47,193 nucleotides of DNA from contig JALXCB010000128.1 of the NCBI GenBank assembly GCA_026991225.1, positions 1-47,193 on the forward strand, written 5' to 3'. Both the position numbers and the translations under genes were made by a program. Position 1 is the stretch's first letter; every line of letters begins with the position of its first letter. The notes beneath the pieces are model-generated. The model made no database searches, was not told the origin of the DNA, and was given only the letters and a program-made list of their open reading frames with translations. This stretch comes from Anaerolineae bacterium. GTDB lineage: Bacteria; Chloroflexota; Anaerolineae; J102. Below, piece by piece: positions 13,403 through 43,534 of this stretch.

Positions 13403-13420
13403 TTTTGTCGATTCGCATTG

Positions 13421-14011
13421 TCGCCCCGGAGCTGAAGCTCCGGGCTAGGAACAACGCCCCGTGAACGGGGCTGTTCGGCTGGCGCGACACAATAGAGCCG
13501 GGTTGACCCGGCGTGGTTGCGTAGCCCGGCGACTTTAGCGCCGGGCGGGCGTGGCCGAGGAAGCATATTTGTTGTTTGCAATGGTTCGTTTTCATGCTCG
13601 TCGCCCCGGAGCTGAAGCTCCGGGCTAGGAACAACGCCCCGTGAACGGGGCTGTTCGGCTGGCGCGACATGACAGAGCCGGGTTGACCCGGCGTGGTTGC
13701 GTAGCCCGGCGTCTTCAGCGCCGGGCGGGCGTGGCCGAGGAAGCATATTTGCTGCTTGCAATGGTTCGTTTTCATGCCCGTCGCCCCGGAGCTGAAGCTC
13801 CGGGCCAGGAACGACGCCCCGTGAACGGGGCTGTTCGGCTGGCGCGACATGACAGAGCCGGGTTGACCCGGCGTGGTTGCGTAGCCCGGCGTCTTCAGCG
13901 CCGGGCGGGCGTGGCCGAGGAAGCATATTTGTTGTTTGCAATGGTTCGTTTTCATGCTCGTCGCCCCGGAGCTGAAGCTCCGGGCTAGGAACAACGCCCC
14001 GTGAACGGGGC
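13421..14011 (+). repeat. REP-type array, 180-bp unit, 3.3 copies
   Basis: Units begin with TCGCCCCGGAGCTGAAGCTC at 13421, 13601, 13781 and 13961, an exact 180-bp period; the last copy is partial. Each full unit holds four hairpins: CCCGGAGC/GCTCCGGG, CCCCGT/ACGGGG, GCCGGGT/ACCCGGC and GCCCGGC/GCCGGGC. The units differ by only a few bases. The array fills the gap between NRPS2 and the RAYT gene. Long antisense frames across it arise only because 180 is divisible by 3. Confidence 0.93.
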
Positions 14012-14035
14012 TCTCCCTAACCAGGAGTCTAAACC

Positions 14036-14536
14036 ATGTCCTACTGGCAGCTCTTCTACCATTTCGTTTGGACAACAAAACATCGTCAGCCTCACATTAC
14101 TCCCGAGATTGAGGACACGATCTACGAATTGGTGCGAACCAAAGCCATCGGCCTTGGCGGCGTCGTGTATGCAGTCGGAGGCCATCTTGACCATGTACAT
14201 TTGGTCACATCCGTTCCGCCTCGCCTTGCCCTCGCGACCTTTATCGGTAAGGTCAAAGGTAGCACGACGGCTCGATTCAACCAACTTAACCTGTTACCCA
14301 TGAAGCTCTACTGGCAAGAAGAATATGGTGTTTTTTCCTTCGACGCCAAGAAGCTGCCAAATTTCATCGCGTACGTGAAGAATCAAAAGCGCCATCACAC
14401 CCAAAACACCACGATCCCTGTGCTGGAACGGATCGCCCGAGGCGAACCTCGTCTGTTACGTGAATCCGGCCCTCTGTATCTTGCCGAAGACCCGCTCTGG
14501 CGAGAAGAGTTGCTTTCATTGGAAGAAGATTTCTAG
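14036..14536 (+). CDS. REP-associated tyrosine transposase (IS200-like, Y1)
   Basis: A 166-residue protein of the Y1_Tnp / IS200 family. It shows the N-terminal YHFVWTTKHRQP segment, the metal-binding HUH pair in HLDHVHL (near residue 58) and a candidate catalytic tyrosine in FIAYVKNQKRHH (near residue 115). These enzymes cut and join single-stranded DNA at hairpin ends. REP hairpins lie on both sides (array to 14011; GCCCGGC hairpin at 14555-14586), the typical arrangement for a RAYT, which is thought to mobilise REP sequences. It starts at ATG 14036, 25 bases after the array. It interrupts the space between two synthetase genes in the same orientation and so may be transcribed with them. 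No frame damage is visible. Confidence 0.9.
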   Translation: MSYWQLFYHFVWTTKHRQPHITPEIEDTIYELVRTKAIGLGGVVYAVGGHLDHVHLVTSVPPRLALATFIGKVKGSTTARFNQLNLLPMKLYWQEEYGVFSFDAKKLPNFIAYVKNQKRHHTQNTTIPVLERIARGEPRLLRESGPLYLAEDPLWREELLSLEEDF

Positions 14537-14586
14537 CCCCATTCATGGGGCGTGGTTGCGTAGCCCGGCGTCTTTAGCGCCGGGCA
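14537..14586 (+). repeat. REP hairpins downstream of RAYT
   Basis: AGCCCCATTCATGGGGC hairpin followed by GTAGCCCGGCGTCTTTAGCG and its closing arm. This is the same REP family as the upstream array and starts at the RAYT stop codon. Confidence 0.85.
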
Positions 14587-14619
14587 GCCAAAACGACAAA
14601 CCCCATCTACAATTCTCCA

Positions 14620-14772
14620 GTAACTACTAAGGTCTCGCCACCGCTTTTTGCCACGAAGATACGAAGAAAAACGAAGGCACGAAGTTTTTCCTTTATTTTT
14701 CCTTCGTGTCTTCGAAAAACTTCGAGCCTTCGTGGCTTTTCGAGGCCTGAAATCGAGTACGTTAGTAGTTAC
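14620..14772. mobile_element. MITE copy 1 with 8-bp target duplication
   Basis: A 153-bp non-coding element. Terminal inverted repeats are GTAACTACTAA (14620-14630) and TTAGTAGTTAC (14762-14772). It is flanked by perfect direct repeats ATTCTCCA (14612-14619 and 14773-14780), read as the target-site duplication. The interior is an imperfect palindrome of CCACGAAG/CTTCGTGG-type repeats, the same sequence family found in the A-domain site-2 insertions. It lies 17 bases before the NRPS3 start codon. Confidence 0.85.
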
Positions 14773-14789
14773 ATTCTCCAACAACACCC

Positions 14790-21587: not shown

Positions 21588-21689
21588 GCCCCGTTTACGG
21601 GGCGTCGTTCCTAGCCCGGAGGCTTTAGCTCCGGGCGTGAGCGGCCCGACCCCCTCACGCCTCACGCATCACGTTTCACGCATCACGCA
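21588..21689 (+). repeat. REP hairpins and CATCACG repeats between NRPS3 and NRPS4
   Basis: GCCCCGTTTACGGGGC hairpin, then GCCCGGAGGCTTTAGCTCCG and its end, beginning at the NRPS3 stop; then a run of CTCACGCATCACGTTTCACG-type repeats up to 3 bases before the NRPS4 start codon. The whole 105-bp gap is repeat sequence and no conventional ribosome binding site is visible. Confidence 0.85.
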
Positions 21690-24600: not shown

Positions 24601-27600
24601 TCCGCATCGAGCCCGGCGAGATCGAAGCCGTCCTCAGCCAGCATCCTTTGGTCAAAATCTGCGCAGTGGACGCCCGCCAGGCGCCCGGTCGGGGCAAGGA
24701 GCTGATCGCCTGGTTCGTGCCTGTCGAAGGGGCCGAGCCGCCCGCGGTCTCTGAACTCCGCCGCTTTATGCAGGAGCGCCTGCCCGACTACATGGTTCCC
24801 AGCCACTTCGTCGTGGTCGAGACCATGCCCCTCACCCCCAACGGCAAGATCAACCGCCGCGCCCTGCCCGATCCCGACTGGACCCAGCGCGTGGCCGAGG
24901 CCGAATTCATCGCCCCCCGCACGCCCGTGGAGGAGATCCTGGCGGGCATCTGGCGGGAGGTGCTGCGCATCGAGCAGATCAGCGTCCTCGACAACTTCTT
25001 CGAGCTGGGCGGCCATTCCCTCCTCGCCACCCAGCTTGTCTCCCGCATGGAAGAGGCCTTCGACATCGACGTGCCCCTGCGCGTCGTCTTCGAAAGCCCC
25101 ACCATCGCCACTCAGGCCGAGTTCGTCGAGATCGAGAAGCGGGCCGCGGCGGGACTGCGCCCGCCCCCCATCGAACCCCTGCCCCGCACGGGCGACGACC
25201 GCTTCCCCCTCTCCTTCGCCCAACAGCGACTCTGGTTCCTGGATCAGCTCCAGCCCAACAGCCCCTTCTACAACATCCCCGAATCGGTGCGCGTCACCGG
25301 CCCGCTGGACGTGGACGCGCTGATCCGCGCCTTCCGTCAGGTCGTGGCCCGCCACGAGAGCCTGCGTACGGTCTTCGAGCAGGTCGATGGCGAACCCGTC
25401 CAGCACATCCTGCCCGACCTGCCCATCGACATCCCCATCATCGATCTCGGCGGCCTGAGCGAGGAGGAACGCGAGGCCGAGGTGCGCCGCCTGGCCTACG
25501 AAGAGGCCCAGACCCCCTTCGACCTGGCCCGCGGACCCCTGCTGCGGGTCAAACTCCTGCGCCTGGCCCCGCGGGAACACGTCATCCTCTTCACCCTCCA
25601 CCACATCATCTCCGACAACTGGTCCTCCAACATCCTCATCACCGAGGTGGCGCTCCTCTACGACGCCATCCTCAAGGGCCAGCCCGCCCGCCTGCCCGAC
25701 CTGCCCATCCAGTACGCGGACTTCGCGGTCTGGCAGCGGAACTGGCTCCAGGGCGAGGTGTTGGAACGCCAGCTCGACTTCTGGCGGAAGCAGCTTCAGG
25801 GCGCGCCGCCCCTGCTGGAACTCCCCACCGACCGACCCCGGCCGCCCGTCCAGACCTTCCGCGGGGATTACCTCACCTTCCAGCTTCCCGACGACATCGG
25901 GCCCGCCATTGCCGACCTGGCCCGCCGCGAGGGCGCGACCCTGTTCATGGCCCTGCTGGCCGCGTTCGACGTCCTCCTCTACCGCTACGCCCATCAGGAT
26001 GACATCAGCGTGGGCACGCCCATCTCGGGCCGCACCCACCGGGCCACCGAGAACCTCATCGGCTTCTTCGTCAACACCCTGGTGCTGCGGGCCGACCTCT
26101 CCGGCGAACCCAGTTTCCGCCAGCTCCTGGCCCTCATCCGGGACGTGGCCCTGGACGCGTACGCCCATCAGGACGTGCCCTTCGAGATGGTCGTCGAGGC
26201 CGTCCAGCCCGAGCGCAGCCTCAGCCAGAGCCCCCTCTTCCAGGTCATGTTCACCCTGCAGAACGTGGCCTCCGAGGCCCAGGTGGTCTCCGACCTGCGT
26301 ATCAAGCCCGTGGACGCGCACAGCGGCACGGCCAAATTCGATCTCACCCTGTTCATGCAGGAGCAGGATGGGCGGCTCAGCGGCGCGCTGGAGTTCAACA
26401 CCGATTTGTTCGACCGGGAGACCATCGAGCGCATGGCCGGGCATTTCGGGGAACTGCTGAAAGCCATCGTCGCCGATCCCGACATGGCCATCGCCCGGCT
26501 GCCCATGCTCACCGAGGCGGAGCGCCAGCTCCTCCTCGTCGAATGGAACCGCACCGACGCGCCCTTCCCCGACCATCTCATCCTGCCCGACCTGTTCGAG
26601 GCCCAGGCCGCGGCCACGCCCGACGCGCCCGCGCTCCACTTCCGCCACGAGACCCTGTCCTTCGCCGAGCTCAACGCCCGCGCCAACCGGCTCGCTCATC
26701 TCCTGCAAGATAAGGGCGTCGGCCCCGACGACATCGTCGCGGTTCTCCTCCCCCGCACGCCCCAGGCCGTCATCGCCCTCCTGGGCATCCTCAAAGCCGG
26801 CGCGGCCTATCTCCCCATCGACCCGACCTATCCGCCCGAGCGCATCCTGTACATGATCGAGGATTCTGGGGCGCGACTTGTGTTGGTGGATCGGGCGGAT
26901 GAAGTGTTCAGTGTTCAGTATTCAGTGTTCAGTGAGCAGCCAGAACTGAACACTGAACACTCGACCGATGCATCTCGCGAGACGGCCGCCTCCCCTCCAA
27001 CGCCCACAGACCAAGGCGTCGATCCTTCAACACTGAACACTGAAAACTTGCCCGACGTATCCAGCGAGACGGTCGCCTCCCCGCCAACGCCCACACACCA
27101 GATCATCCAACTCTCAGAACTGAACACTTTTAGCCATTACCCTGAGACAAATCCCGAGCGCAAACTTACCCCCACCAACCTGGCCTACGTCATCTACACC
27201 AGCGGCTCCACCGGCCGTCCCAAGGGCGTCATGGTGCACCACCGCGGGGTGGTCAACTACCTGACCTGGGTGCAGCAGCGCTATCCCGTGGCCGAAGGCC
27301 AGGGCTCACCCGTCCACTCCTCCCTCTCCTTCGACCTCACCGTCACCAGCCTCTTCGGCCCCCTGGTCGCCGGACGCCCCGCCCGCCTCATCCCCGAGGA
27401 CGCGGGCATCGAGGGCCTGACCGAGGCCCTGCGCCGGGAAGGGGACTACGGTCTGGTCAAGATCACGCCCGCTCATCTCGAACTGGTCAGCCGCGAGCTG
27501 ACGCCCGAGGAAGCGGCTCGCGCCACTCACGCCTTCATCATCGGCGGCGAGGCCCTGCTGGGCGAGCACATCGCCTTCTGGCAACGCCACGCGCCCCACA

Positions 27601-33600: not shown

Positions 33601-35972
33601 GCGTGGTGCTGGTGGATAAGAAGTATTCAGTATTCAGTGTTCAGTATTCAGTTGAAGTTGAGCAGGCGGAACTGAACACTGAACACTCGACTGACGCATC
33701 CCACGGGACGCCTGCATCCCCGCCAACGTCCGCTTACCAGGTCATCGATCTTTCCAAACTGAACACTGAACACTTCCCCTCAGCCAACTCAAACATCCCG
33801 CTATCCCCCGCCAACCTGGCCTACATCATCTACACCTCGGGCAGCACCGGTCGCCCTAAAGGTGTGATGCTGCAGCACCGGGGCCTGACGAACCTGGTGC
33901 ACGCCCAGATCGAGGGGTTTGGGCTGGGGCCGGGCATGAGGGAGCTGCAATTTGCGTCCTTCAGCTTCGATGCCTCGGTGTCGGAGACGTTCACGGCGTT
34001 GTGCAGCGGTGCGACGCTGGTGCTGGCGCCGCGCGAGCGGCTGCTGTCGGGGCAGGAGCTGGTGCGGCTGCTGCGCGAGGAGCGCATCAACGTGGTGACG
34101 CTGCCGCCGTCGCTGCTGGCCGTGCTGGAGGAGGCGGACCTGCCCGAGCTGCGGACGCTGGTGTCTGCGGGCGAAGCCTGCCCGTGGGAGGTGGTGGATG
34201 CGTGGAGCGAGGGACGCCGCTTCCTCAACGCCTACGGCCCGACCGAGGCGACGGTGGGTCCGACCTACGGCGTGGTGAACGAGTACGAGAGCCGCCGCGG
34301 CGCCACCGTGCCCATCGGGCGGCCCATTGGGAACGTGCAGGTGGCGATCGTGGATGAGGAATTGCAGCCTGTGCCCGTGGGCGTGCCTGGAGAGATCGTC
34401 ATCGGTGGGGTGGCCGTGGCCCGCGGCTACCTGGGTCGCCCCGACCTGACCGCGGAGAAATTCGTGCCGAATGACCTCCGGGAGGCGACCAGGAGCCTGT
34501 TGTCAGAACCGGATGGGGCTGGTCGCCTCCCGGAGGTGGGAGAGCGCCTCTACCGCACCGGCGACCTGGCCCGCTGGCTGCCGGACGGGACCATCGAGTA
34601 CCTGGGGCGCATCGACGCCATGGTGAAGGTGCGCGGGTTCCGGGTGGAGCTGGGAGAGGTGGAGGCGGTGCTGGCGTCGCATCCGGGCGTGAGTGCGGCC
34701 GCGGCGAAGGTGGTGGGCGAGCAGATTGCGGCCTACTACCTTCCCGAGGGGGAGGATCCGGGCCCGGAGGCGCTGCGGGAGTACGTGGCGGCGGAGCTGC
34801 CCGGGTACATGGTGCCCGGCTACTACGTGGCGCTGGAGGCGTTCCCCACGACGCCCAGCGGCAAGATCGACCGCAAGGCCCTGCCCGAGCCCGACGCGGC
34901 CGCCCGGCCCCAGACCGACTACGTCGCACCGCGCGACCTGCTGGAAGCCCAGCTTGCGGGTATCTGGGAGGAACTGCTGGGCCTGGAGCAGGTGGGCGTG
35001 CGGGATGACTTCTTCGCCTTGGGCGGGCATTCCCTGCTGGCCGTGCGCCTGCTGGCCCGCATCCAGGAGGAGACGGGCGTCGAGCCCTCCCTGGTCGATT
35101 TCTTCCAGAACCCCACCATCGAGAACCTGGCCCGGCTGGTGCGTCGGACCCTGGCGGGCGAAAGCGCTTCCAGCCTCGTGCCCCTCCAGCCGTTGGGCGA
35201 CCGACCGCCGCTGTTCATGATCCATCCCTCGGGCGGCAGCGTCCACTGGTACGTGGACCTGGCCCAGGCCCTCGCCCCCGACCAGCCCCTCTACGGCATC
35301 CAGGCCCGCGGCCTCAACGGCGACGCGCCCATCCACACGACCATCGAGGAGATGGCCGCCCACTACGTCCAGACCCTGCGCGAAGCCCAGCCGCAAGGCC
35401 CCTACCGCCTGGGAAGCTGGTCCATGGGCGTGATCATCGCCTACGAAACCGCGCGGCAACTCGTGGCCGCGGGCGAAGAAGTCTCCCACCTGATCATGCT
35501 CGACCAGGGCCCCTACCAGCCCAACGATCCCCCCGAGGACGAGGCCGAATACCTGCTCACCTTCTTCGGCAAGCAGCTTCCCCTCACTCTGGACGACCTG
35601 CGCGCCCTGCCCGAGGAGGAGCAACTGCCCTATGTCTTCAATTTGGCCAAGGAGACGGGCCTGATGCTGGCCGACGTCACCCTGGACCAGTTCCGCCGCT
35701 TCTATGAGATCCTCAAGACCCATGAGATGGCCTGGCGGCGGTACGAGCACAAGCCCTATCCGGGTCAGATCATCCTCTTCAAGGCCGAAATCCGCCCGGC
35801 CGACGACCATCCCGCCGGGGACCTGGGCTGGAGCGACCTGGCCCAGGGCGGCGTGGAAGTCATCCACGTCCCCGGCGATCACAACACCATGCTGCATCCG
35901 CCCCATCTCGCCACCCTCGCGCGCAAATTGCGCGAGGTGCTGGATTCAGGAAACCAGGACACCCGCAGGTGA
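21693..35972 (+). CDS. NRPS4: four C-A-PCP modules plus thioesterase
   Basis: A 4759-residue terminal synthetase. Module 1: C HHIIADG at 152; A code DVGEIASVDK by eye (Orn-like); PCP Ser1109. Module 2: C with HHIISDN at 1303 (Asn instead of the usual Gly); A code DLTKIGEVGK, one residue from the Asn code DLTKLGEVGK; PCP Ser2252. Module 3: C HHIASDG at 2444; A code DASTVAAVGK, close to Tyr codes (DASTVAAVCK); PCP Ser3350. Module 4: C HHIISDG at 3542; A identical to module 3; PCP Ser4447. TE about 4493-4756: nucleophile Ser4577 in GSWSMG (the first Gly of GxSxG is Ser), Asp in MLDQGP, His4730 in GDHNTM. No epimerase; all C domains look LCL. TE placement makes this the last protein of the line. 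The C-terminus and stop lie inside a repeat hairpin. All four A domains carry both repeat insertions. Domain calls are strong; substrates are tentative. Confidence 0.96.
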   Translation: MPDDIFQQTVDITSDDVYIFPTSYAQRRLWFLDQFDRGSPYYNIPTAIRITGPLDVQVLEDALNEIVARHEALRTVFIARDGEPYQVVYPEMRVHVPVVDLRDLPSEQREDEAMRLAREEARKPFDLATGPLFRVLIIRLDDEDFIAVLNLHHIIADGWSMAVLVREIAVLYDAFSKGLPSPLPELEIQYGDFAEWQREYLQGEVLEEQLSYWKRVLDDLPPVLELPTDHPRPAVFSSRGASWSFRIPKDLVDEVKRLAQRESATPFMAFLAAFETLLYRYSGQETIAVGTPVANRTQAEIEPLIGVFINTLVIRADFDPGMSFLDLLRQTREQALGAYAHQDLPFEMLVDELQPERDMSHTPLFQVMFIMQNMPLQGSGQQVSDIHMRVLELDAGTATFDITYSLAEQATGMHVSVEYSTDLFELPTIQRMARHYITLLRSIVEHPEAPVAALNMLTPEERHTILAEWNDTATADRRDHTVHELFMQVAARQPDAVAVRYEGQSLTYGELDARSNQLAHFLREKGVGPETLVGVMLPKSLDLIVTLLGILKAGGAYLPISPDYPPERIRYMIEDSGARFVLVDRADEVFSVQFSVFSEQPELNTANSTDAPAAEFASAPAPADQGADPSTLNTEHLPDASRETAAYPPTPTFQVIHLDELNTEHYPPTPPDVRVTPDNLVYVIYTSGSTGRPKGVMLSHRSLVNSYKGWEEAYGLLDEARSHLQMANFSFDVFSGDLVRALLSGGKLVLVPRDYLLSPPDLYRLMVEEEITIAEFVPAVLRNLVGWLEKNGGDLAFMRVLICASDSWYAGEYRDFLRFCGPQTRLINSFGLTEAAVDSTYFESESLELASDQVVPIGKPFPNNRIYILDDALNLVPVGVKGELYVAGLGLARGYLNRPDLTAERFLPDPYLREVDEAIGVEADATSPPPGGDGAKGPRMYKTGDLARWLPSGDIEFIGRKDYQVKVRGFRIEPGEIEAVLSQHPLVKICAVDARQAPGRGKELIAWFVPVEGAEPPAVSELRRFMQERLPDYMVPSHFVVVETMPLTPNGKINRRALPDPDWTQRVAEAEFIAPRTPVEEILAGIWREVLRIEQISVLDNFFELGGHSLLATQLVSRMEEAFDIDVPLRVVFESPTIATQAEFVEIEKRAAAGLRPPPIEPLPRTGDDRFPLSFAQQRLWFLDQLQPNSPFYNIPESVRVTGPLDVDALIRAFRQVVARHESLRTVFEQVDGEPVQHILPDLPIDIPIIDLGGLSEEEREAEVRRLAYEEAQTPFDLARGPLLRVKLLRLAPREHVILFTLHHIISDNWSSNILITEVALLYDAILKGQPARLPDLPIQYADFAVWQRNWLQGEVLERQLDFWRKQLQGAPPLLELPTDRPRPPVQTFRGDYLTFQLPDDIGPAIADLARREGATLFMALLAAFDVLLYRYAHQDDISVGTPISGRTHRATENLIGFFVNTLVLRADLSGEPSFRQLLALIRDVALDAYAHQDVPFEMVVEAVQPERSLSQSPLFQVMFTLQNVASEAQVVSDLRIKPVDAHSGTAKFDLTLFMQEQDGRLSGALEFNTDLFDRETIERMAGHFGELLKAIVADPDMAIARLPMLTEAERQLLLVEWNRTDAPFPDHLILPDLFEAQAAATPDAPALHFRHETLSFAELNARANRLAHLLQDKGVGPDDIVAVLLPRTPQAVIALLGILKAGAAYLPIDPTYPPERILYMIEDSGARLVLVDRADEVFSVQYSVFSEQPELNTEHSTDASRETAASPPTPTDQGVDPSTLNTENLPDVSSETVASPPTPTHQIIQLSELNTFSHYPETNPERKLTPTNLAYVIYTSGSTGRPKGVMVHHRGVVNYLTWVQQRYPVAEGQGSPVHSSLSFDLTVTSLFGPLVAGRPARLIPEDAGIEGLTEALRREGDYGLVKITPAHLELVSRELTPEEAARATHAFIIGGEALLGEHIAFWQRHAPHTALINEYGPTETVVGCAVYQAPPDRDFPGPVPIGKPIINTRLYVLDQHLNPVPIGVPGELYIGGVGVARGYLNRPDLTAERFLPDPYLREVDEAIGVEADATSPPPGGDGAKGPRMYKTGDLVRWLPDGNLEYLGRTDHQVKIRGYRVELGEIEAVLSQHPLVKEAAAIARPDASGANRLIGYVVPAGEGLSVSDLRAFVSDLLPDYMVPSAFVILDEMPLTPNGKIDRRALPEPELAREDLTAAFVPPSTEAERAIAAIFADLLGVDRVGAEDDFFELGGHSLLATQVISRIRDDLGADLPLRLIFEQPTVAGLAAAVEEELARPDRLDVPPILPAPRDGPLPLSFAQQRLWFLDQLEPGQPFYNMPLAVRLRGPLDARGLAYALRSILQRHEVLRTVYREENGQPYQVILDEFDFDMPVEDLSGLDEAAREAEARRRAAAEALKPFDLAHDLMLRAKLLRLDKNDHILLVTMHHIASDGWSMGILLRELTLLYDAYRRQQPAPLPPLPIQYADFAVWQRNWLQGEVLEREMDYWRQKLAGAPPLLELPTDRPRPPVQTYHGAAVYFNLPEDLIPRLETLAQAENATPFMALLAAFKALLARYARTDDISVGTTVAGRDRQEIENLIGFFVNTLVLRTDLSGAPTFRQLLARVRETALEAYDHQHIPFEMLVDTLQPERDMSHSPLFQVMFTYNTSEPLSPAQTGELSLEPVNTDETAARFDLTLSLIHSPQGVSAALEYNTDLFDRETIERMAGHFRTLLAAAVADPDAPVTRLPMLSPAEAETLARWSYAPRDWPLEQTVVDLFEAQAAARPDAVALRFAGEEPVELTYAELNARANQLAHRLIELGVGPETPVAIMVERSPEQVIGLLGILKAGGAYLPIDPSYPEARIRYMLEDAGVSVVLVDKKYSVFSVQYSVEVEQAELNTEHSTDASHGTPASPPTSAYQVIDLSKLNTEHFPSANSNIPLSPANLAYIIYTSGSTGRPKGVMLQHRGLTNLVHAQIEGFGLGPGMRELQFASFSFDASVSETFTALCSGATLVLAPRERLLSGQELVRLLREERINVVTLPPSLLAVLEEADLPELRTLVSAGEACPWEVVDAWSEGRRFLNAYGPTEATVGPTYGVVNEYESRRGATVPIGRPIGNVQVAIVDEELQPVPVGVPGEIVIGGVAVARGYLGRPDLTAEKFVPNDLREATRSLLSEPDGAGRLPEVGERLYRTGDLARWLPDGTIEYLGRIDAMVKVRGFRVELGEVEAVLASHPGVSAAAAKVVGEQIAAYYLPEGEDPGPEALREYVAAELPGYMVPGYYVALEAFPTTPSGKIDRKALPEPDLSQLVTAADFIAPRTPTEELLAAIWSDLLHLDRVGALDDFFTLGGHSLLATQLISRIRDAFGVELPLRVLFEKPVLADLALAIDEARARASGLEAPPIRPVPRDGDLPLSFAQQRLWFLDQLEPGTPAYNLPTAVRLTGHLDINALQAALDDLVARHESLRTNFIARTGEPAQRIHLQRAIPIQVDDLTGVEADAREAEAQRRAQAEVMRPFDLAGDPLVRVKLLRLGEDDHILLVTMHHIISDGWSLGVFVRELTALYLAHARGLPANLPDLPIQYADFAVWQRNWLQGEVLERQLDYWRGQLDGLPPLLELPTDRPRPAIQTANGDALAFALPKELSDRFMQLAREESATPFMAFLAAFETLLARYARQTDFAVGAPIAGRNRAELEPLIGFFVNTLVMRADLSGAPTFRELLARVRETALDAYAHQDIPFEMLVDALQPERAMSHAPLFQTVFTLQNTPPVGDLELPDLRIRPVEADITVAKFDLTLALMETPDGFQGSFEYNTDLFDRETIERMAGHFRTLLAAAVADPDAPVTRLPMLTPAEAETLTRWSYAPRDRPLEQTVVDLFEAQAAARPDVMALRFAGEEPVELTYAELNARANQLAHRLMELGVGPETPVAIMVERSPKQVIGLLGILKAGGAYLPIDPSYPEARIRYMLEDAGVSVVLVDKKYSVFSVQYSVEVEQAELNTEHSTDASHGTPASPPTSAYQVIDLSKLNTEHFPSANSNIPLSPANLAYIIYTSGSTGRPKGVMLQHRGLTNLVHAQIEGFGLGPGMRELQFASFSFDASVSETFTALCSGATLVLAPRERLLSGQELVRLLREERINVVTLPPSLLAVLEEADLPELRTLVSAGEACPWEVVDAWSEGRRFLNAYGPTEATVGPTYGVVNEYESRRGATVPIGRPIGNVQVAIVDEELQPVPVGVPGEIVIGGVAVARGYLGRPDLTAEKFVPNDLREATRSLLSEPDGAGRLPEVGERLYRTGDLARWLPDGTIEYLGRIDAMVKVRGFRVELGEVEAVLASHPGVSAAAAKVVGEQIAAYYLPEGEDPGPEALREYVAAELPGYMVPGYYVALEAFPTTPSGKIDRKALPEPDAAARPQTDYVAPRDLLEAQLAGIWEELLGLEQVGVRDDFFALGGHSLLAVRLLARIQEETGVEPSLVDFFQNPTIENLARLVRRTLAGESASSLVPLQPLGDRPPLFMIHPSGGSVHWYVDLAQALAPDQPLYGIQARGLNGDAPIHTTIEEMAAHYVQTLREAQPQGPYRLGSWSMGVIIAYETARQLVAAGEEVSHLIMLDQGPYQPNDPPEDEAEYLLTFFGKQLPLTLDDLRALPEEEQLPYVFNLAKETGLMLADVTLDQFRRFYEILKTHEMAWRRYEHKPYPGQIILFKAEIRPADDHPAGDLGWSDLAQGGVEVIHVPGDHNTMLHPPHLATLARKLREVLDSGNQDTRR
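23457..23687 (+). repeat. Site-1 repeat in NRPS4 A1 (long form)
   Basis: 7-mer run (GTGTTCAGTGTTCAGTTTTC...) from 23457, followed by three inverse copies (CTGAACACTGCAAAC-like, 23586-23600, 23673-23687). It is longer than the other copies because of an extra inverse unit, with a linker rich in Ala, Pro and Thr. Confidence 0.9.
24424..24488 (+). repeat. Site-2 repeat in NRPS4 A1, type E hairpin
   Basis: Perfect 17-bp inverted repeat: ACCTCCGGGAGGTGGAC (24424-24440) and its complement (24472-24488), with a 31-base loop. It is translated as LREVDEAIGVEADATSPPPG in the A6-A7 loop. Confidence 0.92.
26904..27128 (+). repeat. Site-1 repeat in NRPS4 A2 (long form)
   Basis: 7-mer run from 26904, inverse copies near 26945 and 27031, and a truncated last copy (CTGAACACTTTT, ending about 27128). 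It resembles the long form in A1 of this protein. Confidence 0.88.
27859..27923 (+). repeat. Site-2 repeat in NRPS4 A2, type E hairpin
   Basis: Identical by eye to the 65-bp hairpin in A1 of the same protein (ACCTCCGGGAGGTGGAC arms), although the A-domain cassettes upstream (Orn-like and Asn-like) are clearly different. That fits local copying of the loop. Confidence 0.92.
30328..30479 (+). repeat. Site-1 repeat in NRPS4 A3
   Basis: AGTATTCAGTATTCAGTGTT run from 30328, inverse copies near 30376 and at 30465-30479. It is translated as KYSVFSVQYSVEVEQAELNT, then LNTEHFP directly before the A3 motif. Confidence 0.9.
31180..31243 (+). repeat. Site-2 repeat in NRPS4 A3, type E hairpin variant
   Basis: Perfect 17-bp inverted repeat ACCTCCGGGAGGCGACC (31180-31196) with its complement at 31227-31243. 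The 12-base core is shared with the A1/A2 hairpins, while the outer arm bases differ in both arms so that pairing is kept. The loop is unrelated. Confidence 0.92.
33622..33773 (+). repeat. Site-1 repeat in NRPS4 A4
   Basis: Same as the A3 copy at 30328-30479, inside the duplicated block. Confidence 0.9.
34474..34537 (+). repeat. Site-2 repeat in NRPS4 A4, type E hairpin variant
   Basis: Same as the A3 copy at 31180-31243, inside the duplicated block. Confidence 0.9.
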
Positions 35973-36086
35973 ACCTGCGGGCTAAAACGACGCCCCGTGA
36001 ATGGGGCTTTTTGGCTGGTCGCGTGAGCAAAAAAGCCGGGTTCACTCGGCGTCGTTTCGTAGCCCGGAGTCTTTAGCTCCGGGCGG
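35960..36086 (+). repeat. REP hairpins overlapping the NRPS4 stop
   Basis: The hairpin CCCGCAGGTGAACCTGCGGG (35962-35981) contains the NRPS4 stop codon TGA (35970-35972) in its centre. It is followed by GCCCCGTGAATGGGGC, GCCGGGTTCACTCGGC and a GCCCGGAGTCTTTAGCTCCG hairpin. This is the same REP family as the 180-bp array. Confidence 0.88.
35992..36012 (+). terminator. Possible terminator formed by a REP hairpin
   Basis: GCCCC-GTGAAT-GGGGC stem followed by TTTTT, 20 bases after the NRPS4 stop. It has the form of an intrinsic terminator but has only a 5-bp stem core and belongs to a repeat family, so partial read-through to the sulfotransferase gene is plausible. Confidence 0.4.
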
Positions 36087-39353: not shown

Positions 39354-39497
39354 GTGACTGCTAAGGTAGTTGGCCCCAATCACTCCTCTTTTGCCACGAA
39401 GACACGAAGGAAACGAAGGCGCGAAGTCATTCAAAAAAGATTTTATCCGTGTTTCCTCGTATCCGTGTCGAGTGAACAGGACTGCGTTAGCAGTTAT
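39354..39497. mobile_element. MITE copy 2 with 8-bp target duplication
   Basis: A 144-bp non-coding element with ends GTGACTGCTAA (39354-39364) and TTAGCAGTTAT (39487-39497), 9 of 11 terminal bases complementary. It is flanked by perfect direct repeats CTTTATTC (39346-39353 and 39498-39505). Interior CCACGAAGACACGAAGG links it to copy 1 at 14620. It separates the thioesterase gene from the MbtH gene. Confidence 0.83.
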
Positions 39498-41407: not shown

Positions 41408-41521
41408 ATGCTCACGAATACCGTTCTTTTTTAAAGATTTCTCTAAACTCAATGACGTTTGACAAAGCTGTTTCATGACTGGCAGTTTGGCGCAATTTAC
41501 CAGTTACGGTATGATCCGGAC

Positions 41522-43534
41522 ATGTCTGGTTCGAGAAAAGGCGATCGTTTGATGATTCCCTTTGCCCGACGAATGATTATCGTGGGGATTTTGCTCCTTG
41601 CGGCGTGGCTGCGATGGACTCAGCCGGGCTTGGTGGAGTTCAAGTATGATGAAGCGCATATCTTTGGCATGGCGCAAGGGATAGCTACGGGGCATTTCTG
41701 GCCCGTGCTCAGCGGAGGAACGAGCATCGGCCTGCCGCGCGCCGCCCTGGACGCCTACATCCTCGCGATTCCCCTGTCCCTGACGGGGGGATCGCCCCAG
41801 GCCGCGGTCATCTGGCTGGGCATGTGGGGCGTGACGGCCGTGGCGCTGACCTATCTGCTGGGGCGGTGGATGGCAGGCCCGCGGGCGGGTTTGCTGGCCG
41901 CGGCCTACATGGGTTTGAATCCCTGGCTGGTTTTCTACGACCGCAAGTTCTGGGCGCATATCCAGGTGGTCTTCAGTGTGTTGCTGTTGCTGTTGGCCTG
42001 GCGGGTGGTGGCGAGGAACAGCAGCCGGGCCCGGTTCTGGTTTCCGGTCGTAGCGGCTTTGCAATTGCTTACGCATGTGCTGGCGCTGGTGCAGGCGTTG
42101 AGCTGGCTGGGCGCGGGGTTGGCGGCTCCCAGACGGTGGCGGCGCAAAGAAACCTTGTGGGGAGCGCTGGTGGGCGTCGCTTTGTTGCTACCCTATCTGG
42201 CGGCGTTGGCCCGTCGTGCCTTGCAGGCGTCTACGCCGCAGGTTGTGGCCGTCACCACCTATGCCACTGCTGGCGGTCAAACGCTCAGCGACCGTTGGCG
42301 GCTGGCCTGGCGGCTCATCTCGGGCGACCGCATCTTCGAGCTGACGGGGTTGGGCGTCCGCGCCACGCCGTGGGATGAGATGCTGGCGTGGGGGAGCTGG
42401 GTGGTTGGGGTCGTGATGCTGTTTGGCGTGGGCGTCACCCTCGCCCGATGGCTGCGCCCGCGCGAGGAAGGGCTTTCCAGAACGTCGGCGATTTTGTTGC
42501 TGGCCTGGGGCGTGGGCCCCTGGCTGGCTCTCAGCTTCGGGCCCATGCGGGTCTACCTGCAATACTGGTCGGTGTTGCTGCCCCTACCCGCGCTCTTCTT
42601 CGCCATTGGTCTGGATTGGGCCTGGAGGTGGCTGGTGATATGGCGAGAAGGTTCGGCCATAAGTCCCGCTTATGTGATTCGCACGGGGGGCGCGGCGTTG
42701 ACCGTTGCTTTGTTGCTGGTCATCTGGGCGGGCGCCTGGCTGAGCGTGCTCGGCAGAATCGATGCTGGCGCGGGGCTGGCGACCTTTGGACGGCCTCTGC
42801 GGGACTGGCAGGAGGCGCTGGGCGAGGCGAATGGCTGGGCGCAAAAGCTGGAGTTGGATCAGGTCAAAGTCCTGGCTCAGGGGGTGGATCCGGGCCAGGA
42901 TGGGGAGCCCGCGGCCATCGCCAGCCTCATCGGCAATCCGCCTTATGCCCGGTTTTTGGATCTGAGCGGGCCTACGCCCGGGCTCCTGCTGCACACCACC
43001 CAGCCCAGCCTGTATCTCACGACTTCATCGGCCATGGACGTCTTGTTGACTACATTGGGAGAGGAGGTGTGGCGGGGGAGCGGCGCAGAGCCTATGCGGC
43101 TCTATCTGCTGCCATCCGCACCCGATTCGGGCATTCAGGCCCGTCTGTTGCCCGAACCCCAGAATTTTGACGTGGGAGCATCGCTCATCGGCTATGCCTT
43201 TCCTGACCCCTGGCTTGCAAATGAGCCCGTGCAGGTCATCCTGGTCTGGCGCATGGGGGCTGTTTCGCAACAGGCCCGGCAGGGCGATTATACGGCCTTC
43301 AATCACATCGTGCGGCAAGGCGACGAGGCTAAAGTGGCGCAAGTGGATGGCATGGCTATGCTCAGTCGCGATTGGTGGCCCGAAGATGTGATCTACCAAT
43401 TCTATACGGTGACGATTCCCGAAGCGGGGGAGTTCGAATGGCTAGCGGGATTGTATAGCCGGGTTGACGGAAGCAGATCGCATCTGCCTTCGGGCGGAGA
43501 CGCAGTCATCCTCCCGCTGAAGGTGACTAGATGA
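41522..43534 (+). CDS. GT39-like polytopic membrane glycosyltransferase
   Basis: About 670 residues from ATG 41522; TTG 41459 and ATG 41552 are alternatives and no start has a clear ribosome binding site. The N-terminus is a hydrophobic helix followed by FKYDEAHIFGMAQGI, matching the acidic first extracytoplasmic loop (DE motif) of the PMT/ArnT/GT39 superfamily. Then come about ten hydrophobic segments to near residue 430, and a soluble C-terminal part (about 230 residues). Such proteins transfer sugars from lipid-phosphate donors in the membrane; donor and acceptor are unknown. It lies outside the synthetase run and has its own upstream gap. Fold assignment is fairly good; exact activity is not determinable. 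Confidence 0.75.
   Translation: MSGSRKGDRLMIPFARRMIIVGILLLAAWLRWTQPGLVEFKYDEAHIFGMAQGIATGHFWPVLSGGTSIGLPRAALDAYILAIPLSLTGGSPQAAVIWLGMWGVTAVALTYLLGRWMAGPRAGLLAAAYMGLNPWLVFYDRKFWAHIQVVFSVLLLLLAWRVVARNSSRARFWFPVVAALQLLTHVLALVQALSWLGAGLAAPRRWRRKETLWGALVGVALLLPYLAALARRALQASTPQVVAVTTYATAGGQTLSDRWRLAWRLISGDRIFELTGLGVRATPWDEMLAWGSWVVGVVMLFGVGVTLARWLRPREEGLSRTSAILLLAWGVGPWLALSFGPMRVYLQYWSVLLPLPALFFAIGLDWAWRWLVIWREGSAISPAYVIRTGGAALTVALLLVIWAGAWLSVLGRIDAGAGLATFGRPLRDWQEALGEANGWAQKLELDQVKVLAQGVDPGQDGEPAAIASLIGNPPYARFLDLSGPTPGLLLHTTQPSLYLTTSSAMDVLLTTLGEEVWRGSGAEPMRLYLLPSAPDSGIQARLLPEPQNFDVGASLIGYAFPDPWLANEPVQVILVWRMGAVSQQARQGDYTAFNHIVRQGDEAKVAQVDGMAMLSRDWWPEDVIYQFYTVTIPEAGEFEWLAGLYSRVDGSRSHLPSGGDAVILPLKVTR

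Follow-up and report, generated by a model that had tools for sequence, protein, structure and literature searches.

REP-like four-hairpin elements at an IS200-like Y1 transposase gene of an Anaerolineae NRPS operon, with most of the dispersed copies examined lying inside MITEs

Introduction

The spread of REP sequences is usually credited to the RAYT encoded next to the repeats. TnpAREP recognises footed hairpins on single-stranded DNA in vitro (PMC8266576), and the same source infers local multiplication beside the gene for Marinomonas REPs that lie close to it; tandem REP clusters are also already in print (PMC3733652). On the IS200 side of the Y1 transposases, Quentin et al. 2018 (PMC6006769) describe TnpAY1 subclass 1.2 as IS200-related and low-copy, occurring in Cyanobacteria and Bacteroidetes and entered as 'REP: no'. 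Table 1 of that paper gives its motifs as Y---Q--HH, DH[IV]H and WQ; its members have a conserved, specific C-terminal domain, a median length of 148 aa and generally none of the typical IS200 end structures, the last being worded there as a description and not as a definition. Within the literature library searched, we found no published link between REPs and this subclass.

Here, we describe a Y1 transposase gene with REP-like elements in an NRPS operon. The window, that is, the whole stretch analysed (47,193 bp), is one entire contig of an Anaerolineae draft genome of 3.87 Mb in 201 contigs. By its anatomy the locus resembles a RAYT/REP pair; the protein is of the IS200 class, and the four-hairpin element also forms the core of several MITE families. 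Like the E. coli-type REPtron, including its BIMEs, the locus combines a low-copy Y1 gene between opposed GTAG-footed hairpins with many dispersed copies and local clusters (compare the accounts in PMC8266576 and PMC6006769); unlike it, the element has a conserved architecture of four hairpins and five stems and its dispersed copies are framed by MITEs, and unlike class 2 TnpAREP/RAYT proteins the transposase belongs to class 1 and has no NP motif. With IS608 and ISDra2 the locus shares the protein family, the fold and end hairpins with adjacent tetranucleotides that frame the gene, in contrast to IS200/IS605 elements there are no identical gene copies (in this draft) and the ends recur in many gene-less elements.

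Two REP families described in PMC3733652 are also close: the GTAG-15 dimers of Anabaena variabilis, nested in palindromes that were not seen alone, and GTAG-23 of Thermomicrobium roseum, which forms REP blocks in a Chloroflexota genome. In contrast to the framing reported in that source, the frames found here are MITEs with terminal inverted repeats (TIRs), from several unrelated families, two of them with measured target duplications. These frames resemble other bacterial TIR MITEs in being short and gene-less, with terminal inverted repeats and 9-bp or 5-bp target duplications, and differ from ordinary ones in carrying a Y1-associated REP core and in that no core-less family A copy was found.

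The array and its setting in the NRPS operon

The NRPS names used here are those of a preliminary description of the window; Pfam, run on the first 985 residues of NRPS2 only, places condensation and AMP-binding domains there. A sulfotransferase gene of the NRPS neighbourhood has matches of 70-71% in two other genomes (G007 and G001). The 3.3 near-identical 180-bp units first described 5' of the transposase gene are confirmed: Tandem Repeats Finder reports a period of 180, 3.3 copies, 96% matches, 0% indels and a score of 1116, and a second repeat search recovered the same array (Table 1). In pairwise comparison, the three full units are identical at 172, 173 and 175 of 180 bases, so that 'nearly identical' amounts to about 96%. 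The array begins 17 bases past the end of the NRPS2 frame (13402) and ends 23 bases 5' of the transposase ATG, and a 54-bp spacer is repeated together with the hairpin core. Beside a second copy of this spacer (locus L004 on contig C99), a search for a Y1 relic returned two trivial tblastn pieces only. Because the window is a whole contig of a 201-contig draft, the array copy number in the assembly is unreliable. The suggestion of recent amplification finds weak support, as the units diverge by 3-4%, gene conversion is possible and the sequences provide no date.

The intact Y1 transposase gene 3' of the array and the REP hairpins 3' of that gene were likewise described correctly. The partial unit 5' of the gene stops right after H2, and the sequence 3' of the gene resumes at the place of H3, with GCCCCATTCATGGGGC in that place, the 3' side of stem S, a GTAG foot at 14560-14563 and H4 (CCCGGCG..CGCCGGG). 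The transposase gene therefore lies inside one element, between a left half (H1, H2) and a right half (H3, H4), a layout that the preliminary description did not give and that is clear in the window only. The same REP family does occur after both NRPS3 and NRPS4, as a right half only in the former place and as a full element in the latter. None of the three window sites has a MITE arm of family A or B.

Table 1. Positions of the array, the transposase gene and the elements in the window, and end sequences of the MITE families
Feature	Position or genome	Strand	Remarks
Tandem array	13420-14012	+	period 180; three complete units plus 53 bp of a fourth
Full units	13420-13599, 13600-13779, 13780-13959	+	
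Partial unit	13960-14012	+	
Four-hairpin core, unit 1	13423-13545	+	
H1, unit 1	13423-13445		inverted foot, CTAG on the minus strand at 13448
H2, unit 1	13456-13471		
H3, unit 1	13497-13512		
H4, unit 1	13525-13545		foot GTAG (13521-13524) directly 5'
Stem S			AACAACG / CGTGGTT; encloses H2 and H3; based on covariation
Left half element	13960-14012	+	H1, 5' side of S, H2; 23 bases before ATG
Y1/HUH transposase gene	14036-14536	+	166 aa, IS200-like; DHVH, WQ and YVKNQKRHH motifs
Right half element	14536-14584	+	begins in the transposase stop codon
Right half element	21588-21635	+	immediately follows the NRPS3 stop codon; CTAG foot at 21611-21614
Full four-hairpin element	35960-36085	+	after NRPS4; NRPS4 stop codon (35970-35972) within H1
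MITE family A	this genome		ends GGGTGCGTCC..GGACGCACCC
MITE family B	this genome		ends TAAACTG..CAGTTTA
MITE family C	G049 (genome of L106)		ends GAGAGCGTTCGGAAAC
MITE family D	G049 (genome of L106)		ends GACAATGTCAC

A scan for terminator-like sites found none on the operon strand and eight on the minus strand, against 2.1 expected; an intrinsic terminator as explanation of the hairpins was rejected, since the operon strand is without any such site. Rfam at its gathering thresholds gave no match across the window.

The window holds several other repeats and genes. Within the NRPS ORFs, in-frame tandem repeats of seven bases (TCAGTAT / AGTGTTC) occur at 1847, 5909, 10335, 16499, 23456, 26903, 30328 and 33622, at a constant site after a YMxEDxG...V stretch, and encode loops such as QYSVFSVQYS. 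It seems that simple repeats of intergenic type either inserted into one and the same loop in many adenylation domains or were copied along with these domains. Eight-base repeats (CACGAAGR), also in frame in NRPS ORFs (2717, 6824, 11240 and 20748), follow a RPxLTAExFxPxPF stretch and encode NHEGTKARRHEE-like loops, and related CACGAAG repeats occur between genes (14650-14742 and near 39400). NRPS4 further contains an 87-bp unit repeated 2.2 times in frame (26941-27128), and the gap between the transposase gene and NRPS3 holds, at 14618-14774, a second repeat whose ends, GTAACTACTAAGGT and ACGTTAGTAGTTAC, lie around a CACGAAG inverted repeat. A gene of the PD-(D/E)XK nuclease superfamily (PF13366; 3586-4026) lies between NRPS1 and NRPS2, and a 691-aa ORF (41459-43534) has no Pfam match at E 0.001.

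Structure of the four-hairpin element

Each unit has the four hairpins that had been noted, namely GCCCCGGAGCTGAAGCTCCGGGC, GCCCCGTGAACGGGGC, GCCGGGTTGACCCGGC and then GTAG followed by CCCGGCG..CGCCGGG. When a single unit is folded, it reaches z = -5.15, and none of 200 shuffles folds equally well. The minimum-energy DNA fold of the window unit is a longer pairing that differs from the four-hairpin form, which is therefore backed by covariation and not by energy alone. In an alignment of 17 elements, drawn from this genome and from three relatives and scored for H1-H4 plus a further stem, S, 97.4% of cells are paired (88.6% when shuffled), 13 pairs have changed on both sides (5.9 when shuffled) and covariation is 0.237 (0.074 when shuffled), values that none of 500 shuffles reached; sliding the structure along the alignment lowers the paired cells to 38-49%. 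One pair of stem S is open in seven of the 17 elements. The element is composed of an inverted hairpin with CTAG as its foot (H1), two hairpins (H2 and H3) inside the common stem S, and a direct GTAG hairpin (H4), the stem around the two middle hairpins being an addition to what was described before.

From this structure we built a covariance model (referred to as R1), which rests on few sequences (effective number 1.27), is seeded in the element's own lineage and is permissive. It matches at least 86 places in this genome, and of 41 genomes of the class, 25 have matches.

The transposase and its relatives

The transposase ORF is open and scores 76.3 bits against Pfam Y1_Tnp (cut-off 23) and 65.2 bits against the NCBIfam IS200/IS605 transposase model NF033573 (cut-off 55); the RAYT model NF047646 gave no match to the 166-aa protein at E 0.001. 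Its tyrosine motif, YVKNQKRHH, reads Y---Q--HH and not Y---NP as in class 2 RAYTs. This pattern recurs in 77 of the best 80 of 485 relatives, and W93 and Q94 are invariant across two alignments. An AlphaFold model (mean pLDDT 84.5, with a weakly predicted tail) aligns best to the ISDra2 (Z 14.0) and IS608 (Z 13.8) transposases and less closely to TnpAREP (4er8; Z 11.5), further matches at Z 7-8.7 being unrelated folds, and the sole PHROGs match, phrog_2577, is a transposase.

Judged by sequence, the protein is IS200-like and not a canonical RAYT, and it fits TnpAY1 subclass 1.2. With the subclass as published in PMC6006769 it has in common DHVH, WQ and Y---Q--HH, a comparable size, a single, non-identical copy and cyanobacterial relatives. 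It has 166 aa, with a weakly predicted tail; the subclass median is 148 aa. In contrast to the 'REP: no', the lack of typical IS200 end structures and the host range given in that source, the gene and many of its relatives here have REP-like four-hairpin elements alongside, and the relatives we found are mostly Chloroflexota. One class 2 feature is present, as the gene is flanked by GT[AG]G-footed REPs that are also found dispersed; two tested class 2 features fail, and for this reason we do not file the protein under class 2 RAYTs. The original label of a RAYT with REPs thus holds for the GTAG-footed palindromes tied to a Y1 transposase and not for the protein, which is IS200-like, has the Y---Q--HH motif and is without a match to NF047646.

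The draft contains five Y1 genes, the next-best relative of the window gene being 47% identical; near-identical copies are absent from the draft, which may collapse repeats. The other four (L031, L032, L033 and L035) have, by eye, their own, differing palindromes alongside; three are IS200-like and one, on C112, resembles a RAYT (NF047646 68.9, cut-off 80). In a tree of the relatives found here and these four genes, the Chloroflexota form one long and one short set beside the cyanobacteria; 37 of its 82 branches are unresolved.

Association of the element with the gene

Scanning named genomes yielded 485 related places. The best 80, which we retained, are partly related to each other and comprise, by title, 57 Chloroflexota loci (including L108, titled Acidithiobacillus) and 23 cyanobacterial ones, the named relatives of the window gene being mostly Anaerolineae. 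Within these loci, we compared R1 matches at most 700 bp from the gene with those more than 1300 bp away, leaving out the sources of R1 (L096, L097 and L121). Among these best 80 of 485 relatives, a near match of at least 40 bits occurs at 27 of 54 Chloroflexota loci (51 matches in 68.6 kb near the gene versus none in 141 kb far from it) and at 7 of 23 cyanobacterial loci (10 in 32.2 kb versus none in 74.4 kb). At 30 bits the near counts rise to 38 of 54 and 9 of 23, with one and two far matches, respectively. Even at this threshold a near match is missing from 16 of the 54 Chloroflexota loci and from 14 of the 23 cyanobacterial ones.

GTAG/GTGG-footed hairpins follow the same distribution in Chloroflexota (0.86 per kb near, 0.11 far and 0.03 shuffled); in cyanobacteria they are not enriched (0.13 per kb near, three in 23 kb, and 0.17 far, 11 in 65 kb). 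The cyanobacterial feet are, by eye, TTAG, TGAG or TAAG, and H1, S, H2, H3 and H4 are recognisable by eye in the cyanobacterial elements, which may overlap the GTAG-12/15/16 families as described in PMC3733652. The element next to the L170 gene has 56 matches elsewhere in its genome, some being both strands of one place; in the genome of L166, the element is mainly a three-copy array adjoining the gene. A covariance search of five cyanobacterial genomes gave zero or one passing match each, which speaks against wide dispersal there, or else against the reach of the model.

Of the 80 genes, 21 have a tandem array (period 80-500) at a distance of at most 1 kb (147.7 kb in all), compared with two in 265 kb of distal sequence, and all three closest relatives have adjoining arrays. 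An exact-period array beside the gene is recurrent in this subfamily, and so typical instead of unusual; tandem REP clusters are also reported in PMC3733652. Taken across the relatives, four-hairpin elements, often in arrays, adjoin the gene in Chloroflexota and less often in Cyanobacteria.

Dispersed copies inside MITEs

Among the copies examined, MITEs enclose most dispersed elements of this genome and many of those in sister species and in a further Anaerolineales genome. These belong to several unrelated TIR families, two of them with target duplications: terminal inverted repeats are present for families A and B in the own genome, for A also in G006 and G008, and for C and D in G049. A fixed H3-H4 pattern, which diverged copies escape, defines 27 uncut copies in this genome (loci L004-L030, L067 and L091); at least one arm of family A or B is present in 25 of the 27 and both arms in 20, cut copies and eleven loci fetched by arm being left out of the count.

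Family A in G006 (25 loci) has at least eight of nine flanking bases duplicated in 9 of 11 candidates, against a shuffled mean of 1.2; in the own genome the duplication is seen in 3 of 29 candidates (0.31 when shuffled), many of which are spurious or internal to arrays. Family C in G049 has 5-bp duplications (a mean of 2.78 of 5 bases versus 1.50, reached by none of 1000 shuffles), and family D, in the same genome, shows a target duplication in none of five. As the duplication test was uninformative for family B, the evidence that it duplicates TA comes from visual reading of two insertions (L022 and L030), both of which interrupt the ends of another repeat; the uninterrupted form of these sites is seen in the ends of the repeat at 14618-14774 in the window. 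No core-less family A element was found, none of 82 matches spanning joined arms. Two copies (L010 and L015) combine, about a single core, a family A arm on the left with a family B arm on the right, which suggests that MITE arms are exchanged through the common core. MITE-framed copies also form arrays, on C70 and C164, away from any Y1 gene.

The view that RAYTs spread REPs, adopted in the preliminary description, does not fit most of the dispersed copies examined, which sit in TIR-bounded MITEs. That description also regarded REP units in genomes lacking this RAYT subfamily as evidence against its account, and such units are seen in part: G005, a draft that is 98% complete, has at least 86 R1 matches and yet no Y1 protein above 34% identity, and, by eye, the single G005 copy inspected in detail resembles the units of G006 and G008. 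MITE-borne spread would explain this pattern, as would, equally, gene loss or an assembly gap. The matches in G034 (49) and G038 (65), which have distant Y1 genes and no near relative of the window gene, may be other repeat families caught by the permissive model. A separate stretch of the sister species (L181, on C199 of G005) has two Y1 genes in the same orientation, 947 bp apart, and R1 has no match on it.

Origin of the arrays and of the dispersed copies

We consider it probable, though by no means certain, that an IS200-like (class 1) Y1 transposase is the basis of this REPtron-like locus and acts as a RAYT-like local amplifier, and that the element is mostly dispersed by other transposons. 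By analogy with E. coli TnpAREP on GTAG REPs, the enzyme would bind and nick the footed hairpins on single-stranded DNA; its action, or slippage at the hairpins, would multiply naked elements locally into arrays. Because most of the dispersed copies examined lie inside MITEs, genome-wide spread would be largely the work of other, DDE-type transposases that carry the core. As part of this same reading, the elements in the NRPS operon are probably intergenic passengers, their one visible coding effect being the NRPS4 stop codon inside one of them. A bolder model is a two-tier system, in which the Y1 enzyme makes, amplifies and exchanges the core on single-stranded DNA and also places it in the middle of unrelated MITEs, and DDE-type transposases carry it on as double-stranded DNA; we regard this as tentative, a possibility that we would not yet lean on.

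Slippage at hairpins is a fair rival for the growth of the arrays. In its strict form, namely that the array arose by slippage during replication or by unequal recombination in hairpin-rich DNA, with the transposase uninvolved, it accounts for the exact period, the lack of indels, the copying of the 54-bp spacer with the core and the MITE-framed arrays on C70 and C164 away from Y1 genes; in two phyla, however, arrays cluster at Y1 genes (21 of 80 near, two in 265 kb far), which makes it rather unlikely. That the transposase is a canonical, domesticated class 2 RAYT, itself the spreader of all REP copies in the genome, is decidedly unlikely: the GTAG foot, the REPs on both sides of the gene and the single gene copy agree with it, but the IS200 model scores above its cut-off and the RAYT model is without a match, Y---Q--HH stands in place of Y---NP, MITE ends frame the dispersed copies, and G005 combines its at least 86 matches with no Y1 above 34% identity.

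Two further explanations concern the hairpins themselves. The low effective number of R1 (1.27) and its 49 and 65 matches in G034 and G038 could mean that the association beyond the closest relatives is an artefact, a permissive model scoring any GC-rich run of hairpins; we hold this to be very unlikely in view of the near and far counts at 40 bits or more (51 versus 0 and 10 versus 0, with the model sources left out) and of H1, S, H2, H3 and H4 being seen by eye in cyanobacterial elements. The hairpins might instead be RNA elements of the NRPS operon, for 3'-end protection or attenuation between genes, as they come after NRPS2, NRPS3 and NRPS4, and E. coli REPs are described in PMC13289151 as stabilising RNA 3' ends without terminating transcription. 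This reading we find extremely improbable, because the same elements occur at the at least 86 places in the genome and beside transposase genes elsewhere, and all eight terminator-like sites lie off the operon strand.

Implications

If an IS200-side branch entered as 'REP-free' has REP-like elements of its own, the association of Y1 transposases with REPs is not confined to class 2. If other MITEs carry the majority of scattered copies, REP counts are no gauge of RAYT activity. Should the two-tier system prove true, foreign transposases would largely determine REP copy number, and a REP family could persist after the loss of its own transposase.
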